DNA of 64,000 nt, from positions 558,001-622,000 of the forward strand of contig NZ_JALPRP010000001.1 of assembly GCF_023195915.1 (NCBI RefSeq). Reading direction: 5' to 3'. The translations under genes and the position numbers were made by a program. This document shows, piece after piece, positions 1,535-52,743 of the stretch. Source of the DNA: Methanoculleus sp. 7T. Lineage in GTDB: Archaea; Halobacteriota; Methanomicrobia; Methanomicrobiales; Methanoculleaceae. Numbering within the stretch: position 1 is the first letter of the stretch; the number at the start of each line of letters is the position of its first letter. The notes under the pieces are model-generated. The model was not told the DNA's origin and made no database searches. It worked only from the letters and a program-made list of their open reading frames with translations.

Positions 1535-3082
1535 ATGGAACCACTGACGGCAGAGAAGATCAGCGAGAAGATCCGGGAGATCGAGCAACGCGTCGGACGG
1601 CTCTCTCCGATGCAGAAGATCCTCATCGGGACCGACGGATCGGTAACGAACCTCCTTGAGATGGCGACCGGGCACCCAGTCGGCATCACCACCCTGGTGC
1701 AGGAGGTCGTCGCCGCCGACCCCACGACGGCGGCCGCACTTGAGATCGAACCGGGGGACGAGGTCAACTACCGTGTTGTGGAGTTAAGGGACAGCGTAAC
1801 GGGTGAGGCGCTCATCTACGCGGTCTCCCGCACCCCGCTCAGGAGGCTTGCCCCCGAGTTCAGGCAGGACCTCATGCGGGCCGACATCCCCATCGGCAGG
1901 ATCCTCTGCCGCCACCGGATAGAATCGCGCCGGGAGATCACCGACGCCCGCATCGTTCAGGCCGGGACGGACCTCGCCCGGACGTTCAACATCCACCGGT
2001 GCGAATCGATGCTCTCCCGGAAATACCGGATCATCCACCGCGAGGAGCCGCTGATCGCCATCGAGGAGGTCTTCCCCTGCACGGCGTTTGCGGACGATAT
2101 CAGGGTGCTGGTCGACGCCCCGTCCCGGATCCATATCACCCTGCTCGATATGAACGGCAGATCGGGCAGGGTGGACGGCGGGGTCGGGGTCGCCCTCGAC
2201 GAGCCCGGGTGCGTGCTGGACGCGCGGAAGAGCGAGAACATCGGCGTGCACGGCGGCGATGAGGTGGCCCGCCGCCGGGTTGCCGAGGCCGCCCGGGCGG
2301 TGATGGAGGGACTTTGCCTGCCGGGCGGTGCGGAGTTCACCCTGCATACAACTGCCCAGCGGCACGCCGGACTCGGGAGCGGGACGCAGGTTGCGCTTGC
2401 CGCGGCCGCAGCCCTCTGCCGGCTCTACGACCGGGATGTTCCGGTATACGACCTTGTGAGGGTCGTCGGCCGCGGCGGGACGTCCGGCATCGGTACGGCG
2501 GCGTTCGAGCAGGGCGGGTTCATTGTGGACGGCGGGCACCGGTTCGGCCCCTCGGGGGATAAGCAGGACTTCCGCCCCTCGGCGGCATCGCGGGGCATTG
2601 CGCCGCCGCCGGTTCTCGCACGGCACCGGTTCCCGGAGGACTGGCACATCCTGCTCGTTACGCCGGATATCGGAGCAGGGGCGCACGGCGGACGGGAGGT
2701 CGACATCTTCCGCACGCACTGCCCGGTGCCGCTCGAGGAGGTGCGGGAGCTCTGCCATGAGGTGCTCATGCGGATGATCCCGGGCTTGATCGAGCACGAC
2801 CTCGACCTCTTCGGCTCGGCAATCAATAGGACACAAGCCCTCGGGTTCAAGAGGGTCGAGGTGGCCATGCAACACCCCGTCGTTCCCTCGCTCCTCGAGG
2901 CGACGGTGCAGGCCGGCGCCGCCGGGGCGGGCTTAAGTTCGTTCGGGCCGACGGTCTACGCTGTCGGGGATTCAGGTATGGAGGATGTGGCCCGGGCGGC
3001 GAAGGAGGTGCTCGGCGACCTCGGAGGGTCGGTGATTCTGACGAAAGCGAGAAACTGCGGGGCAAGCATGCGAGAAGAGTAA
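1535..3082 (+). CDS. Chorismate lyase (DUF98)-beta-ribofuranosylaminobenzene 5'-phosphate synthase fusion
   Basis: Two domains are visible in 515 residues. Residues 1 to about 170 look like the archaeal DUF98/chorismate pyruvate-lyase family (SPMQKILIGTDGSVTNLLE, then PLRRLAPEFRQDL and IPIGRIL). From about 190 onward is a GHMP-superfamily RFAP synthase (SRIHITLLDMNG, VDGGVGVAL, the Gly-rich HAGLGSGTQVALA near 278, GRGGTSGIGTAAFEQGG). RFAP synthase joins an aromatic acid to phosphoribosyl pyrophosphate with loss of CO2, an early step of methanopterin synthesis. Known family work places archaeal chorismate lyase just before it, making 4-hydroxybenzoate. The fusion would therefore hold two consecutive steps in one chain, which is inference. 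The ATG at 1535 follows apgM by 66 bases. Confidence 0.85.
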   Translation: MEPLTAEKISEKIREIEQRVGRLSPMQKILIGTDGSVTNLLEMATGHPVGITTLVQEVVAADPTTAAALEIEPGDEVNYRVVELRDSVTGEALIYAVSRTPLRRLAPEFRQDLMRADIPIGRILCRHRIESRREITDARIVQAGTDLARTFNIHRCESMLSRKYRIIHREEPLIAIEEVFPCTAFADDIRVLVDAPSRIHITLLDMNGRSGRVDGGVGVALDEPGCVLDARKSENIGVHGGDEVARRRVAEAARAVMEGLCLPGGAEFTLHTTAQRHAGLGSGTQVALAAAAALCRLYDRDVPVYDLVRVVGRGGTSGIGTAAFEQGGFIVDGGHRFGPSGDKQDFRPSAASRGIAPPPVLARHRFPEDWHILLVTPDIGAGAHGGREVDIFRTHCPVPLEEVRELCHEVLMRMIPGLIEHDLDLFGSAINRTQALGFKRVEVAMQHPVVPSLLEATVQAGAAGAGLSSFGPTVYAVGDSGMEDVARAAKEVLGDLGGSVILTKARNCGASMREE

Positions 3083-3542
3083 ACAGCACTTATAACGGCT
3101 GCGGCATCAGCCCCCTGCTTCATCATAGATCAGTGGGGGTAACTCTCATCATCTGCCGCGTAGCGCTATGTATCGTTCGACGTGCAGGACGTTAATAGTT
3201 CGGCACTCTATCGTCCTTACCTCCGCCACCCAAGAGACTCTGCGGCCGGAAGTCCGTTGACGGGGCGGGTCTTCCGGATCTCTCTATATTCACTCTCAAT
3301 TTAGGAACGGCGCCGTCAATCCGGGAAAAATATAAATAGACAGAGGCCCAGTGTGGAACTCAACGCATCAAGGGAGGGAAGGCAGTATTCTAGAATATCT
3401 ACATGCGGAGGTAACCATAGCAGCCAGCCCGGCAGGGAACCTCCTCCGGACGAGCGAGCAGGACGGCCGGGGCATGACGTCCGAGAACGGACCCCAAAAC
3501 AGGTCCCTCGCCGGCCGGAGTTGCAGCAGGAGGACGGAGTAA
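3083..3542. other. Intergenic region with promoter for the capA-GT pair
   Basis: No convincing gene is seen. A small hairpin (GGCTG 3097-3101 with CAGCC 3108-3112) follows the RFAP synthase stop. A strong TATA-like element lies at 3328-3338 (AATATAAATAG), placing transcription start near 3360 and leaving a leader of about 180 bases before capA. A 63-codon frame from 3351 ends directly before the capA start; it has no recognisable domain and I do not call it a gene. Confidence 0.5.
3328..3338 (+). promoter_or_regulatory. TATA box upstream of capA-like gene
   Basis: AATATAAATAG stands out from the GC-rich surroundings and resembles the archaeal TATA consensus. It implies a transcript starting near 3360 with an unusually long leader compared with most genes in this window. 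Confidence 0.5.
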
Positions 3543-46214: not shown

Positions 46215-46661
46215 TTACCCCTCATCCTCCACCGCGTCGAACCAGACGGGGTCGGGACAGTCCGGCCGGCCGCCGTAGTTGATGGTGATCTCCTCGCCTT
46301 TTCGGATGGCGCGGCGGGCGTAGATGCGAATCTCGCCCCCGGCAACGTCGCAGACATGGTCTGCGTTCGCATGGTAGGAGTGGTTGTAGAGCGACCCGCA
46401 GCCCAGCGCCACGGCGGCGAGCTCCGGGCACTCTCCCCAAGCAAAGTAGTAGTCGAAGAGATGCGTCCGATCAAGGAGTCTCTGCTCATCCGCTCCACCC
46501 AGCACGATCACCGGGCAGACCTCGATCAACTCATCGGCCGCGATATCCCTGCGGGCGAATACCCCTCGACCGCGGGTGCTCGTCGAACCGACGTATATGA
46601 CATCGGAAGGGTATACGGCTTCGTCTCTCGCCGGACCCATCCTATCGGCACCATCTATCAT
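46215..46661 (-). CDS. SET-domain protein (lysine methyltransferase-like)
   Basis: The 148-residue protein is little more than a SET domain: GRGVFARRDIAADELIEVCP (N-terminal strand), GCGSLYNHSYHANADHV (NHS, SAM site) and IRKGEEITINYG (the ITxNY end). In eukaryotes SET proteins methylate lysines of histones and other proteins; some archaeal members act on DNA-binding proteins. Substrate here is unknown. The frame is open to 46793; ATG at 46661 is the most sensible start. It flanks the ORB-like region, and the adjacent ABC genes are divergent. No post-SET Cys cluster is present, though there is a final CPDPVW segment. Confidence 0.85.
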   Translation of the reverse strand: MIDGADRMGPARDEAVYPSDVIYVGSTSTRGRGVFARRDIAADELIEVCPVIVLGGADEQRLLDRTHLFDYYFAWGECPELAAVALGCGSLYNHSYHANADHVCDVAGGEIRIYARRAIRKGEEITINYGGRPDCPDPVWFDAVEDEG

Positions 46662-46932
46662 GGTATCGCTGTATTTCCTATCTCTTGGGTGCTCAAACCC
46701 CTGCAGAGACGGCAGGAGAGTTCCCCGTACGCAGGCTCCCGTGCACATCGACCGTACAAGCGCGGCGGACGGTGCGCCTTTTGAAGCCGGCAACGTGTGG
46801 GATTATAGAGATCTGTTCGATGCGGGCAAAAAGGATGCGGGGCACGGGCATGCAGCCGGCCGGAGACGGTCTGGGTGAAAGGGGATTTTGGCCCTTAAGG
46901 GAGCAGAGTCTGGGGGATGAACGAGCGAAAGA

Positions 46933-48661: not shown

Positions 48662-48757
48662 GAGCAGTCGCCGTTCTCCGGAGAGCGGAGCGCGTATAGC
48701 CTATGCTATCTCGGAAAGGTAAGGAAAGGCCGCATCGGGCATGTTTAAAAAAAGGGG

Positions 48758-48934
48758 TTAGAATCGGGGTTTCCTGTGCTTCGGGAGGCAGTCGCGGCAG
48801 TAGACGGGCCTGCCCTCGGTCGGCTGGAAAGGAACTTCGCACTCTTTGCCGCAGTCGGAACAGACTGCCTTGTGGAACTCGCGGGGGCGATCCTGGTACG
48901 ACCGCGGACCCCGGCTCGAATATCTCTCTTCCAT
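48758..48934 (-). CDS. CxxC-x17-CxxC mini zinc-binding protein, copy 1
   Basis: The 58-residue protein has an Arg/Ser-rich head (MEERYSSRGPRSYQDRPR), then AVCSDCGKECEVPF and GRPVYCRDCLPKHRKPRF, four Cys in two CxxC pairs with 17 residues between. This matches the small CxxC-x17-CxxC zinc-binding family common in methanogens. The ATG at 48934 gives exactly the same length as copy 2 (177 bases each). GTG at 48949 is possible. Possible nucleic-acid binding is suggested by the basic ends, not shown. Confidence 0.8.
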   Translation of the reverse strand: MEERYSSRGPRSYQDRPREFHKAVCSDCGKECEVPFQPTEGRPVYCRDCLPKHRKPRF

Positions 48935-48977
48935 TGGGATTTCACTCACGTTGAGAAACCGTATTCACACAAACGAC

Positions 48978-49154
48978 TCAGTACCGGGGTTTCCTGTGCT
49001 TCGGGAGGCAGTCGCGGCAGTAGACGGGCCGACCCTCCGTGGGCTTGAAAGGAACTTCGCACTCTTTGCCGCAGTCGGAACAGACTGCTTTATGGAACTC
49101 GCGGGGGCGGTCCTGGAACGAGCGGGGACCCCTGCTCGAATATCTCTCATCCAT
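48978..49154 (-). CDS. CxxC-x17-CxxC mini zinc-binding protein, copy 2
   Basis: Near-identical 58-residue tandem copy of the gene at 48758-48934 (MDERYSSRGPRSFQDRPR, then the same four-Cys core). Only about five residues differ, so duplication is recent or kept by gene conversion. A TATA-like CTATATATG lies at 49201-49209 on the minus strand and would give a leader of about 25 bases. The frame extends to TTG at 49190, which I consider less likely. Confidence 0.8.
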   Translation of the reverse strand: MDERYSSRGPRSFQDRPREFHKAVCSDCGKECEVPFKPTEGRPVYCRDCLPKHRKPRY

Positions 49155-49496
49155 ATACTTCAACCATGCAGATAGTCTGCACATATACAACTACCTACGG
49201 GCATATATAGGTGCGTCTCATAGACCTAAGGCAAGTTTCGCTGCCCCGTCCGACTCCCTCACCAGGACGCCAAGCGACTTCGTCCTTCCCCGGTGCGATG
49301 ACAGGATTCTCTCGGTGAGAAAGTCTCCAATAACGTGGTCGTTTGCTCCTGCAAAGAGACCTGCGGCACAATGCTTTTATCGATACCATCCTACCGAATG
49401 ATCACCCAACTATGGCACACATTAAACCGATCTCTTTTGCAACCCGGCAAAACGCCGGTTCTCTCCCGGAGACGGGACTGAGGTGGGCGGCTCGGC
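49155..49496. other. Intergenic region with a possible coding remnant
   Basis: Contains the TATA box for the CxxC gene. On the minus strand from about 49377 to 49218 a frame reads with protein-like composition (AGANDHVIGDFLTERIL, then RTKSLGVLVRESDGAAKLAL, stop) but has no usable start codon, so it may be a decayed gene or chance. Confidence 0.4.
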
Positions 49497-51488
49497 ATGA
49501 CTGACGAGATACATACAGACGAACCCCCCGATAGCAGACACAGGGGAAAACACCGGGACAGGCGGACGATAGGTCCTGTCCCCAACCTGGAAGAGTATGT
49601 GAAATCCGACTGGTGGCGGGGCATCTTCAATCACCTCTACCTAAAGACCGACGGCGACGTCGTCGACGACCAGCGGATCACTGGAAACGAGATCGATCGG
49701 ATAACTCGGATCCTGCACCTCCAGCCGGACGAGGCGATCCTCGACCTCTGTTGCGGCCAGGGAAGGCACACCCTCGAACTTGTGCGCAGAGGCTATGATG
49801 TCGAAGGACTCGACCAGTCGCACTACCTGATCCAGCGGGCCCGGTCGACTGCAAAGAAGGAGGGGTTGCAGGTCAGGTTCCGCGAAGGAGACGCGCGCCG
49901 GCTGCCGTACCGTACCGACACCTACGACGTCGTCCTTGTCCTCGGGAACAGTTTCGGCTACTTCGACTCGGTCGAGGAAGACCTGAGGATCCTCATGGAA
50001 CTCCGGCGTATCCTCAAACCCTGGGGCCGGGTGCTCCTGGATGTTGCCGACGGCGAGTACCTGAAAGAACATTTTCAGGCCAGATCGTGGGAGTGGATCG
50101 ATTCTACAATGTTCGTCTGCCGGGAGCGGTCCCTCTCGCTCGACAGGCAGCGCCTGATCTCAAGGGAGGTGATCACCGACGTCAATAAAGGCGTCGTGGC
50201 CGACCAGTTCTATGCCGAACGTCTGTATACCCCCGAAGCGCTCCGGCAACTCTTGGAAAGGGCAGGTTTCTCAGACATCGCTTTCCACGACATCGCCACG
50301 GAGTCGCAACGAAACCAGGACCTCGGTATGATGGAGCGCCGTCACATCGTCACCGCGGTCCTCAAGAAAGAGTGGTCGACGGCGAGATCGAGAGGGCAGG
50401 AGAGGGCGAAACACGTCGCGGTGATGCTCGGCGATCCCGCCAAGCCCGACGCCTTAAAGCCCTCCTGCGTCTTCGATGACGACGATTTCTACACCATCGA
50501 CCAGATGAAGGCGGCCCTTCGGGAACTGAAAGGCTACCGGTTTACCTTCCTGTGCAAACACGACACGATGATCCAGGACCTCACAAAACTGAAGGGGAAG
50601 GTGGACTATGTCTTCAACCTCTGCGATGAGGGATTCGACAACGACCCAAGAAAAGAGCTCCACGTTCCGGCGCTTCTGGAGATGCTCGGGATCCCGTATA
50701 CGGGATCGGGGCCGCAGTCGCTCGCATACTGCTACGACAAATCGCTCGTGCGCGGCGTCGCGAAGGAGATGGGGATCCCGGTGCCGGACGCCTGCTTCAT
50801 CACCCCCGGTGACCGCACCTACGATGTCGGGATGAAACTCCCGGCGATCGTCAAGCCGAACTCGGGCGACTCCTCGTACGGCATCACGCAAAAGAGCATC
50901 GCCCACACTATCGAAGAACTCGCCGACGTCATAAACTCCCTGCGGACGACGATCGGATACGACCGGTCGCTCCTTGTCGAGGAGTTCCTCACCGGGAAAG
51001 ATATCAGCGTCGGCATCATCGGGAACCCGTCTGGGTACTGCACGGTCCTCCCCATCACCGAGGAGGACTACTCCGCACTACCCCCCGAGCTTCCCCGGAT
51101 CTGCGGCTACGAAGCGAAGTGGCTCCCCGATTCACCGTATTGGAAGATCGTATCAAGGTCCGCGGACCTCCCCGAGGAGACCGAGAAGATGGTCGTCAGG
51201 TGCTGCCTCGCCCTCTTTGAGCGCTTGGAGTGCCGCGATTACTGCCGTTTCGACTGGCGCTTGGACGAACACGGCAACCCGAAACTCCTCGAGGTCAACC
51301 CGAACCCAGGCTGGTGCTGGGACGGCCACCTCGCAAAGATGGCGAAGTATGCAGGCATCTCGTATCCTGAGATGCTTGGGCGGATCCTGAAGGCGGCAGA
51401 GGAGCGGAGCGGGATGGAGCAGAACACAGGGGCGCGGGAGGCTGAGAAGGAGCCCCTCCCGCTCGACCTTAACCAGCAGACGGCCTGA
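49497..51488 (+). CDS. SAM methyltransferase-ATP-grasp (D-Ala-D-Ala ligase-like) fusion
   Basis: The 663-residue protein has two enzymatic halves. Residues about 30-295 are a class I methyltransferase (ILDLCCGQGRHTLELVRRGY near 80, then EGDARRLPY and VLVLGNSFGYFD). Residues about 305-640 are an ATP-grasp domain of the D-Ala-D-Ala ligase type (VDYVFNLCDEGFD, YTGSGPQSLAYCYDKSL, IVKPNSGDSSYGI and the metal site CRFDWRLDEHGNPKLLEVN-PNPG). An archaeon without murein does not need D-Ala-D-Ala, so it probably makes another methylated, amide-linked small molecule or modifies a peptide. A preceding hydrophilic 25-residue head looks disordered. The ATG at 49497 is the first in-frame start, with TGAGGTG upstream. 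Confidence 0.87.
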   Translation: MTDEIHTDEPPDSRHRGKHRDRRTIGPVPNLEEYVKSDWWRGIFNHLYLKTDGDVVDDQRITGNEIDRITRILHLQPDEAILDLCCGQGRHTLELVRRGYDVEGLDQSHYLIQRARSTAKKEGLQVRFREGDARRLPYRTDTYDVVLVLGNSFGYFDSVEEDLRILMELRRILKPWGRVLLDVADGEYLKEHFQARSWEWIDSTMFVCRERSLSLDRQRLISREVITDVNKGVVADQFYAERLYTPEALRQLLERAGFSDIAFHDIATESQRNQDLGMMERRHIVTAVLKKEWSTARSRGQERAKHVAVMLGDPAKPDALKPSCVFDDDDFYTIDQMKAALRELKGYRFTFLCKHDTMIQDLTKLKGKVDYVFNLCDEGFDNDPRKELHVPALLEMLGIPYTGSGPQSLAYCYDKSLVRGVAKEMGIPVPDACFITPGDRTYDVGMKLPAIVKPNSGDSSYGITQKSIAHTIEELADVINSLRTTIGYDRSLLVEEFLTGKDISVGIIGNPSGYCTVLPITEEDYSALPPELPRICGYEAKWLPDSPYWKIVSRSADLPEETEKMVVRCCLALFERLECRDYCRFDWRLDEHGNPKLLEVNPNPGWCWDGHLAKMAKYAGISYPEMLGRILKAAEERSGMEQNTGAREAEKEPLPLDLNQQTA

Positions 51489-51579: not shown

Positions 51580-52743
51580 ATGGTGCTGCCTGAGAGCGAT
51601 ATTACCTTTGAGAGGTACGCACAGGAGGCCGGAGCGCTCGCAAGAGACGTGGAAGATGAGATCGCACGCGAAGAGCAACGGCAATCGTCCCTCCTTTCCT
51701 ACGACGACCGGCTTCACGCCACAGGCCCGTTCATCCTCGCCGCGGTCCTCGTAAACCTCTTCTTCCTGCTCTTCCTTCCCCGGTATATACTCTACTGGAT
51801 CGTATCGAGTTTCGTCCTCTACATGGTGAACCCCTTCATCCTGATGGTCCCGACCGAAAGGGGAAAGACGGCCGTCTCGGACGGGAAGGCTATTTTGGAG
51901 ATCCTCAGGTCGATCCGGTATGCCGGGGGGATCCCCTGCGCCGTGGCCGGCGACGCAAGGACGCTCGGGAAGGTGCTCTGGGACACCTTCTTCATCAACT
52001 GCCAGCCCCTCGCCGTCGGGTTCGGGCTGATATTCGGGATCGACGTCCTCTTCGCGCTCTCGGGCAACCTGACGGGGTCCTTAAATCCGGAGACGGCGGC
52101 GCTGATCACGCTCCAGTCCCTTGCAATCATCCTCTTCTACGCAGGGATCTGGTGCGTCAAGCCCTACACAACAAGTTTCTTTCTCTCGCTCGACGTGATG
52201 CGGATGAGCCTGCGGGAGAAGATCCGGGCCGGGTGGCGGGCGGCGACACGGGTCGTCCTCCTCGTCGCCGCTTTGGGAACCGCGAGCGGGATCCTTGCCA
52301 TATCCGCGATGCTCCTTCCGGGGATGACGTTCTCGGCGTTTCTTGCCTCGGTCGACCTTGCTCTCGGATGGGTATTCCTTCCAATCGCCGCCATATTCAT
52401 CTCGCAGGTCATCATCGCCAGGTACCTGCAGGGGGCCTACAGCCGGGAACTCCTCCTGCAGGTGGGCGACTACAAGGTCCACGTCTGGCGGGACGGGATC
52501 CTAAACCGGCTCGCCGCATTCCCGAAAACCCCGGAGGAGATCAGAGACCTAGATCACCTGGAAGGGCTCATGGCAGAACTTAAATGCATGCAGAGCGACT
52601 ACCAGCGGATGAGGGTGTATACGTCCGAACATCACGACCTCTTCGGCTTCTTCCCGGTCTACCTCGTCCTGCCCGATGTTCATCTTATTCGAGACAGGTA
52701 CTCCTTCACCCCATCCAGAGAGATGGATGCCTCGAAGGCTTGA
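51580..52743 (+). CDS. Membrane protein of unknown function
   Basis: The 387-residue protein starts with a 40-residue charged, coiled-coil-prone segment (ARDVEDEIAREEQRQSS). It has about seven hydrophobic helices from 50 to 290, and a C-terminal cytoplasmic part of about 100 residues. I recognise no family motif. A TATA-like AATAAATTTATTT lies at 51540-51552, about 30 bases above the ATG at 51580. It stands between the fusion enzyme and nifB in the same direction, with 91- and 49-base gaps. No function is proposed. Confidence 0.75.
   Translation: MVLPESDITFERYAQEAGALARDVEDEIAREEQRQSSLLSYDDRLHATGPFILAAVLVNLFFLLFLPRYILYWIVSSFVLYMVNPFILMVPTERGKTAVSDGKAILEILRSIRYAGGIPCAVAGDARTLGKVLWDTFFINCQPLAVGFGLIFGIDVLFALSGNLTGSLNPETAALITLQSLAIILFYAGIWCVKPYTTSFFLSLDVMRMSLREKIRAGWRAATRVVLLVAALGTASGILAISAMLLPGMTFSAFLASVDLALGWVFLPIAAIFISQVIIARYLQGAYSRELLLQVGDYKVHVWRDGILNRLAAFPKTPEEIRDLDHLEGLMAELKCMQSDYQRMRVYTSEHHDLFGFFPVYLVLPDVHLIRDRYSFTPSREMDASKA

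Follow-up and report, generated by a model that had tools for sequence, protein, structure and literature searches.

What does a gene do that joins a methyltransferase (MT) to an ATP-grasp ligase of the D-Ala-D-Ala ligase (Ddl) type in an archaeon? One such gene lies in the window, i.e., the whole stretch of 64,000 nucleotides analysed here. The original prediction took both of its halves to be intact and its product to be a small-molecule or peptide-modifying enzyme. The fusion combines two known folds and forms a discrete, widely transferred family, whose product is probably an undescribed small molecule.

One gene encoding two conserved domains

The gene is a single ORF of 663 residues with an ATG start and a TGA stop (Table 1). 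As predicted, an MT is fused to a D-Ala-D-Ala-ligase-type ATP-grasp, and both Pfam domains score far above their cut-offs: Methyltransf_25 at residues 81-177 (E 3.8e-20; 72.8 bits, cut-off 27) and Dala_Dala_lig_C at residues 423-631 (E 5.2e-25; 88.6 bits, cut-off 24). The motifs LDLCCGQGR(H), KPNSGDSSYG and EVNPNPG, on which the prediction was based, are all present. The ORF is confirmed as a real fusion, rather than a product of chance, stop read-through or misassembly: orthologues with this architecture in one ORF occur both across the genus and outside its family, some of them in single-contig genomes. In-frame TGA codons flagged in a few genomes were dismissed as consistent with matches extending beyond the natural stop. 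Comparison of the window fusion with eight orthologues gave dN/dS values of 0.07-0.15 for both halves, which are under strong purifying selection.

Table 1. Features of the fusion gene, with window coordinates, strand and supporting evidence
Feature	Coordinates	Strand	Evidence
Ribosome-binding-like GAGGTG	49480..49485	+	Sequence; 11 nt 5' of ATG
Fusion CDS, methyltransferase/ATP-grasp	49497..51488	+	663 aa; orthologous single ORFs elsewhere
MT half, residues ~23-292	49563..50372	+	Pfam, AlphaFold elements, NmbA alignment
SAM-binding motif DLCCGQGRH, residues 83-91	49743..49769	+	D83, C86, G87, G89 invariant in 67 sequences
GNSFGYF, residues 150-156	49944..49964	+	Invariant in 67/67; SFGYF also in NmbA
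Inter-domain linker, residues ~293-303	50373..50405	+	pLDDT <50 at residues 296-301
ATP-grasp half, D-Ala-D-Ala-ligase fold, residues ~304-640	50406..51416	+	Pfam, Foldseek
FDDDDF acidic motif, residues 326-331	50472..50489	+	At DdlB Glu15 (substrate-1 amine site)
KPNSGDSSYG, residues 453-462	50853..50882	+	K453 = DdlB K144 (ATP), 67/67
NPNPGWCWDGH loop, residues 601-611	51297..51329	+	Alignment to DdlB, 67/67

An AlphaFold2 model built from an alignment of 67 sequences has two confidently folded domains (mean pLDDT 86) joined by a short low-confidence linker at residues 296-301; with a pTM of 0.56 for the fusion protein, the predicted placement of the two domains relative to each other is uncertain. 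No RNA elements were detected between 45 and 55 kb of the window, and a promoter and terminator scan, whose consensus is bacterial while the host is archaeal, returned no sites. The sole PADLOC match was to the methyltransferase part of mads_2, which is generic, and a defence system was rejected.

Active sites of the two halves

The ligase half belongs to the ATP-grasp superfamily (Dala_Dala_lig_C), as shown by its score above the Pfam gathering threshold and by its Ddl fold. A Foldseek search against the PDB with this half returned the Ddl structures 3r5x/3r23 as best matches (target TM-scores 0.79-0.84, 23-24% identity). Escherichia coli DdlB, with its sequence checked against 1iov, was used as the active-site reference and compared with 67 diverse fusion sequences; the roles of its residues in ATP and Mg binding, the transition state and the acceptor site are what we take to be established Ddl knowledge. 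DdlB K97, K144, E180, K215, R255, D257, N272 and G276 are identical in 67/67 fusion sequences, and the position of E270 is Glu in 65 of them and Asp in the other two. The ATP/Mg and transition-state residues being kept, phosphoryl transfer and the chemistry of a tetrahedral intermediate should work. Both halves look catalytically intact, as first proposed, with the catalytic residues kept and no active-site residues lost for the ATP-grasp chemistry.

The acceptor site is altered. DdlB Ser281, at the carboxylate site of D-Ala2, is replaced by Gly (G610), Tyr216 of the omega loop by Trp (W542) and His63 by Glu, each in all 67 sequences; position 216 is Phe in D-Lac ligases. In the loop that contains N601 (DdlB N272, Mg) and G605 (DdlB G276, oxyanion), the segment PNPGWCWDGH follows the Mg-binding Asn with no exception in the 67 sequences. 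F326, D329 and D330 of the FDDDDF motif are invariant, and the position of DdlB Glu15 is Asp in 66/67. Considering that the catalytic residues are kept and the acceptor residues replaced, the enzyme would be expected to form acyl phosphates and amide bonds with an acceptor that is different and fixed. All NCBIfam Ddl/Van models among the matches listed score far below their cut-offs, the best reaching 132 bits versus 243, which together with the loss of Ser281 and Tyr216 bears out the original view that the ligase half is no D-Ala-D-Ala ligase of murein synthesis.

The MT half, a Rossmann core with a beta-rich cap, is a class I SAM-dependent methyltransferase, as identified by this core, motif I and an acidic residue after beta2 (D106, invariant in the 67-sequence alignment). 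Its N-terminal segment LGPVxxLExxVxxDWWRxIFN is conserved, and from its conservation GNSFGYF is the probable active-site motif. The best solved relative is PDB 9RI2 (E 3e-25), i.e., NmbA, which was shown to methylate bacillithiol at its cysteinyl nitrogen (PMC12719100), a role with genetic evidence from a mutant (PMC6282198). Synthesis of bacillithiol needs BshA-C. BshC (PF10079) was found in none of 21 genomes (the window genome and 20 relatives), in a search that detected its positive controls, so bacillithiol is ruled out here as the substrate of the fusion. Further matches of the MT half include N-methylating daptide and glycine/sarcosine methyltransferases.

Distribution, transfer and gene context

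The gene occurs in most genomes of the window genus at 80-92% identity. In its phylum, Halobacteriota, the ligase half has matches in 82 of 393 genomes. Orthologues at 56-91% identity, almost always single ORFs of ~630-810 aa, are present in about 60 of the 82, and the rest have just fragments or distant ATP-grasps at 28-40%. The fusion had been viewed as a matter of archaea, and of Methanomicrobia in particular, which proved too narrow: scanning a species-level genome collection gave at least 507 confirmed relatives, mostly from uncultured organisms and many of them bacterial, and those among the matches listed, which include 80 loci, are mostly 57-82% identical. The listed loci come from records of Planctomycetota, Thermodesulfobacteriota, Atribacterota, Zixibacteria, Cloacimonadota, Spirochaetota, Acidobacteriota, Chloroflexota, Omnitrophota and Nitrospirota among bacteria, and of Lokiarchaeota, Jordarchaeia and Methanophagales among archaea, all at 62-70% identity; individual assignments may be wrong because many records are metagenome bins. 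Several listed loci lie on contigs of >100 kb, and the surroundings are bacterial in L125 (arginine decarboxylase and a sigma-54-type regulator) and L099 (heptosyltransferase-like and AlaS genes). The bacterial frequency is low, at 7/247 Desulfobacterota-type and 4/149 Planctomycetota-type genomes. Bacteria and archaea are intermingled in a tree of the 67 sequences, in which two genomes from the phylum of L125 and three methanogens from a different family share one fully supported branch. Transfer of the fusion between domains is the simplest reading. The fusion is a discrete family that spans methanogens, ANME and Asgard archaea as well as many bacterial groups.

At some loci the gene is missing or damaged. 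In the nearly complete genome G005, from the window genus, both the fusion and the next gene, encoding a membrane protein, are missing between collinear flanks, and in the nearly complete, single-contig genome G023 the MT half is frameshifted (L028:4810-6802). That next gene, at 51580-52743 of the window, encodes a predicted membrane protein of 387 aa directly 3' of the fusion; in G036 it is not between the fusion and NifB. A 191-nt direct repeat (48744-48934 and 48964-49154, 88% identical) lies between an ABC permease gene and the fusion, with a third, partial copy elsewhere in the genome; sequence matching it occurs in G005 at the point of the missing fusion. At L167:6981-11908 (-) the fusion is seemingly split, with N- and C-terminal fragments around an ATP-grasp/GNAT/KamA block, through either decay or misassembly.

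The fusion survey that had been suggested revealed that the domains are far from always separate, nearly every orthologue being fused. Matches to the ligase half fall at ≥56% (fusion) and then at ≤40% (free-standing and often paired ATP-grasps), with a gap between. A ligase half alone at similar identity was found in none of 393 Halobacteriota, 247 Desulfobacterota and 149 Planctomycetota genomes, where some matches were contig-edge fragments. The Desulfobacterota genome G533 (locus L142) encodes an orthologue of the MT half alone, with 282 aa, which is 48-51% identical and keeps 71 of the 81 positions invariant in the fusion. It follows two adjacent SET-domain genes (L142:8938-10641; gaps of 6 and 15 nt) in what is likely an operon. 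The sole ATP-grasp match in G533, at 30%, is elsewhere in the genome; as this MT lacks a close ATP-grasp partner, methylation could be independent of the ligase.

In several archaeal families, the nearest free-standing ATP-grasps adjoin KamA-type radical SAM aminomutases and GNATs. At L166:7883-9982 a KamA-family aminomutase and a D-Ala-D-Ala-ligase-type ATP-grasp form one ORF of 700 aa; next come another ATP-grasp and an ORF resembling an acetyltransferase. In two related genomes, a GNAT joined to an AdoMet-decarboxylase (AdoMetDC)-like domain lies beside an ATP-grasp at L168:248-1327 (-) and L167:9549-10442 (-), in the latter case also adjoining a KamA-type aminomutase; read by eye, the pyruvoyl-serine region of the AdoMetDC-like proteins looks altered. 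These KamA, GNAT and AdoMetDC-like contexts point to small amino-acid or amine conjugates as the chemistry of the subfamily. One genus of a Methanosarcinaceae-like family (L165 in G287, genus g54 of family f8) has a 706-aa ORF with an ATP-grasp of the subfamily in place of the MT fusion.

The fusion itself has no conserved partner. Clustering of neighbours at the ~80 loci among the matches listed revealed no conserved partner gene, and no precursor peptide, transporter or peptidase is conserved beside the fusion in dozens of lineages, in a search that was systematic for ORFs of ≥70 aa. NifB, an OGG-type glycosylase and an ABC transporter were considered as partners and rejected as synteny within the genus or family only. 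A SET-domain gene 2.7 kb from the window fusion (46215-46793, -) lies near the fusion throughout the genus, and the same SET family is directly 5' of the MT-only orthologue in L142; as a lead it was set aside, being near the fusion within the genus only. At a few loci the neighbours are nevertheless informative. Genes of the AstE/aspartoacylase type lie next to the fusion in L086, L125 and L129, and in L125 are followed by genes for another ATP-grasp, a gamma-glutamyltranspeptidase, an N-formylglutamate amidohydrolase-type protein and a GNAT-nitrilase. At L130 the fusion has a 7TM_transglut gene and an ATPgrasp_ST ligase on one side and a further gene lacking Pfam matches on the other. Settings with KamA, AstE or polyamine genes are found either around relatives or at only a few fusion loci.

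Proposed reaction and comparison with known systems

We tentatively propose, at slightly less than an even chance, that the fusion is a self-contained cytosolic bifunctional small-molecule enzyme, joining an amino acid to an amine through an acyl phosphate and then N-methylating it. The ATP-grasp half would convert the carboxyl of an amino acid, or of an amino-acid-like acid, into an acyl phosphate and join this to an amine lacking the alpha-carboxylate of D-Ala2. After ligation, the MT half would transfer a methyl group from SAM to the N of the aminoacyl amine, as NmbA does, and so yield an N-methylated aminoacyl-amide or pseudo-dipeptide. The order of the steps, the amine acceptor, N rather than O, S or C as the target, and the product are what we infer; by analogy, NmbA, which acts on an already ligated aminoacyl-amide, suggests a ligate-then-methylate order at least as much as the scheme first proposed, in which one partner would be methylated and the other ligated. 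The two activities appear coupled, the halves being fused in nearly every orthologue with both at dN/dS ~0.1, and the lack of a conserved partner gene fits a self-contained enzyme using common metabolites.

The amine could instead be a polyamine or diamine, yielding an N-methylated aminoacyl-polyamine in the manner of a glutathionylspermidine-type ligase. The invariant acidic FDDDDF motif and the aromatic-acidic acceptor loop (WCWDGH with W542) would suit such a substrate, genes for AdoMetDC-like, spermidine synthase, arginine decarboxylase or saccharopine/carboxynorspermidine-dehydrogenase-like proteins lie a few kb away in L125, L129 and L158, and L167/L168 have a GNAT joined to an AdoMetDC-like domain next to a related ATP-grasp. 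However, such genes are outside the fusion operon (divergent or >700 bp distant) and occur at just a few of the ~80 listed loci, polyamine genes are common, and the AdoMetDC-like proteins are changed at the pyruvoyl-serine region as judged by eye; we consider this unlikely. Of the two roles first predicted, the small-molecule enzyme is still the best reading, and the peptide-modifying (RiPP-like) one is disfavoured because no precursor or other neighbouring gene is conserved. In that role, a residue would be methylated and ligated onto a ribosomal peptide or protein, in keeping with the co-occurrence of ATP-grasp and UbiE-like methyltransferases in some graspetide loci (PMC8939145) and with the probable operon of the free-standing MT relative and two SET-domain genes. 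Besides the missing precursor, transporter and peptidase genes in dozens of lineages, the ATP-grasp is of the Dala_Dala_lig type and the gene is dispensable, being cleanly absent in G005, making modification of a peptide or protein improbable.

Two unrelated reactions of different pathways might also share one chain for the sake of expression or stability. The low pTM and the predicted disordered linker would allow this, as would the MT alone in G533, but the fusion is near-universally retained over a very wide range of phyla with frequent transfer, and the ligase half was never alone at similar identity in the genomes of the three phyla searched, apart from contig-edge fragments; we give this arrangement only a small chance. 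That the fusion is a genuine D-Ala-D-Ala or D-Ala-D-Lac ligase carrying an accessory methyltransferase is very improbable: the Pfam score and Ddl as the closest solved fold speak for it, but every NCBIfam Ddl/Van cut-off listed is far from reached, Ser281 and Tyr216 are replaced in 67/67, and at least one bacterial carrier (L100) has a separate gene (2299-3459) resembling a true Ddl.

If the bifunctional small-molecule enzyme is the right reading, its product may be a previously undescribed metabolite, an N-methylated aminoacyl-amide that could be a thiol, an osmolyte or cofactor-like, made by one gene from common precursors and spread by transfer, which we regard as possible but doubtful. With similar reserve, this metabolite might be common to methanogens, ANME, Asgard archaea and many uncultured bacteria. 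Identity of 57-82% across archaea and many bacteria, with ~100 invariant residues, is a strong sign of a specific unrecognised metabolite. The automatic label 'D-alanine--D-alanine ligase', likely for such proteins, would mislead. Because the fusion is a single gene with both active sites assayable with SAM and ATP, and because one family carrying it, apparently Methanosarcinaceae-like, probably has genetically tractable species, a widespread gap in the genomes of methanogens and of the deep biosphere can be tested directly. No characterised member of the fusion family was found in the open-access literature searched, though an earlier mention of it may exist in an older ATP-grasp survey, and the parts consulted of a survey of archaeal fusion and fission (PMC11237513) do not mention the architecture.

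The fusion shares with Ddl (PF07478) the ATP-grasp fold and the catalytic Lys/Arg/Asp/Glu/Asn set, but differs in having Ser281, Tyr216 and His63 all replaced in 67/67 and an MT fused on. The closest free-standing ATP-grasps, from archaea (L162-L171), are 28-40% identical to the ligase half and, as in the fusion, have Arg at DdlB position 259 (8/8 compared) and, in most, Trp at 216; unlike the fusion, a solitary gene, they lack an MT domain and sit in conserved clusters that include an aminomutase. Synthesis of mycosporine-like amino acids combines the MT MysB and the Ddl-like ligase MysD, with MysA and MysC as partners; neighbours of this kind were noticed at none of the loci read. The stand-alone, NRPS-independent ATP-grasp amide ligases TabS, DdaF and fungal Cp1B (PMC12568646) likewise activate a carboxyl as an acyl phosphate and condense it with an amine to pseudo-dipeptides, as proposed for the fusion, but they belong to other ATP-grasp branches, lack an MT domain and lie within pathway gene clusters. 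Membership of the NmbA family has been limited to >25% identity, E <1e-20, similar length and coverage >80% (PMC12719100); at 31.5% and E 3e-25 the MT half is within the first two limits, and the fused protein is much longer. NmbA of Chlorobaculum tepidum (CT1040, N-methyl-bacillithiol synthase) is a stand-alone protein of 266 aa that keeps only 34 of the 81 MT positions invariant in the fusion family, whereas the MT half here is fused; the two nevertheless share the class I SAM-dependent type, a related cap, 31.5% identity over 216 residues and the SFGYF motif.
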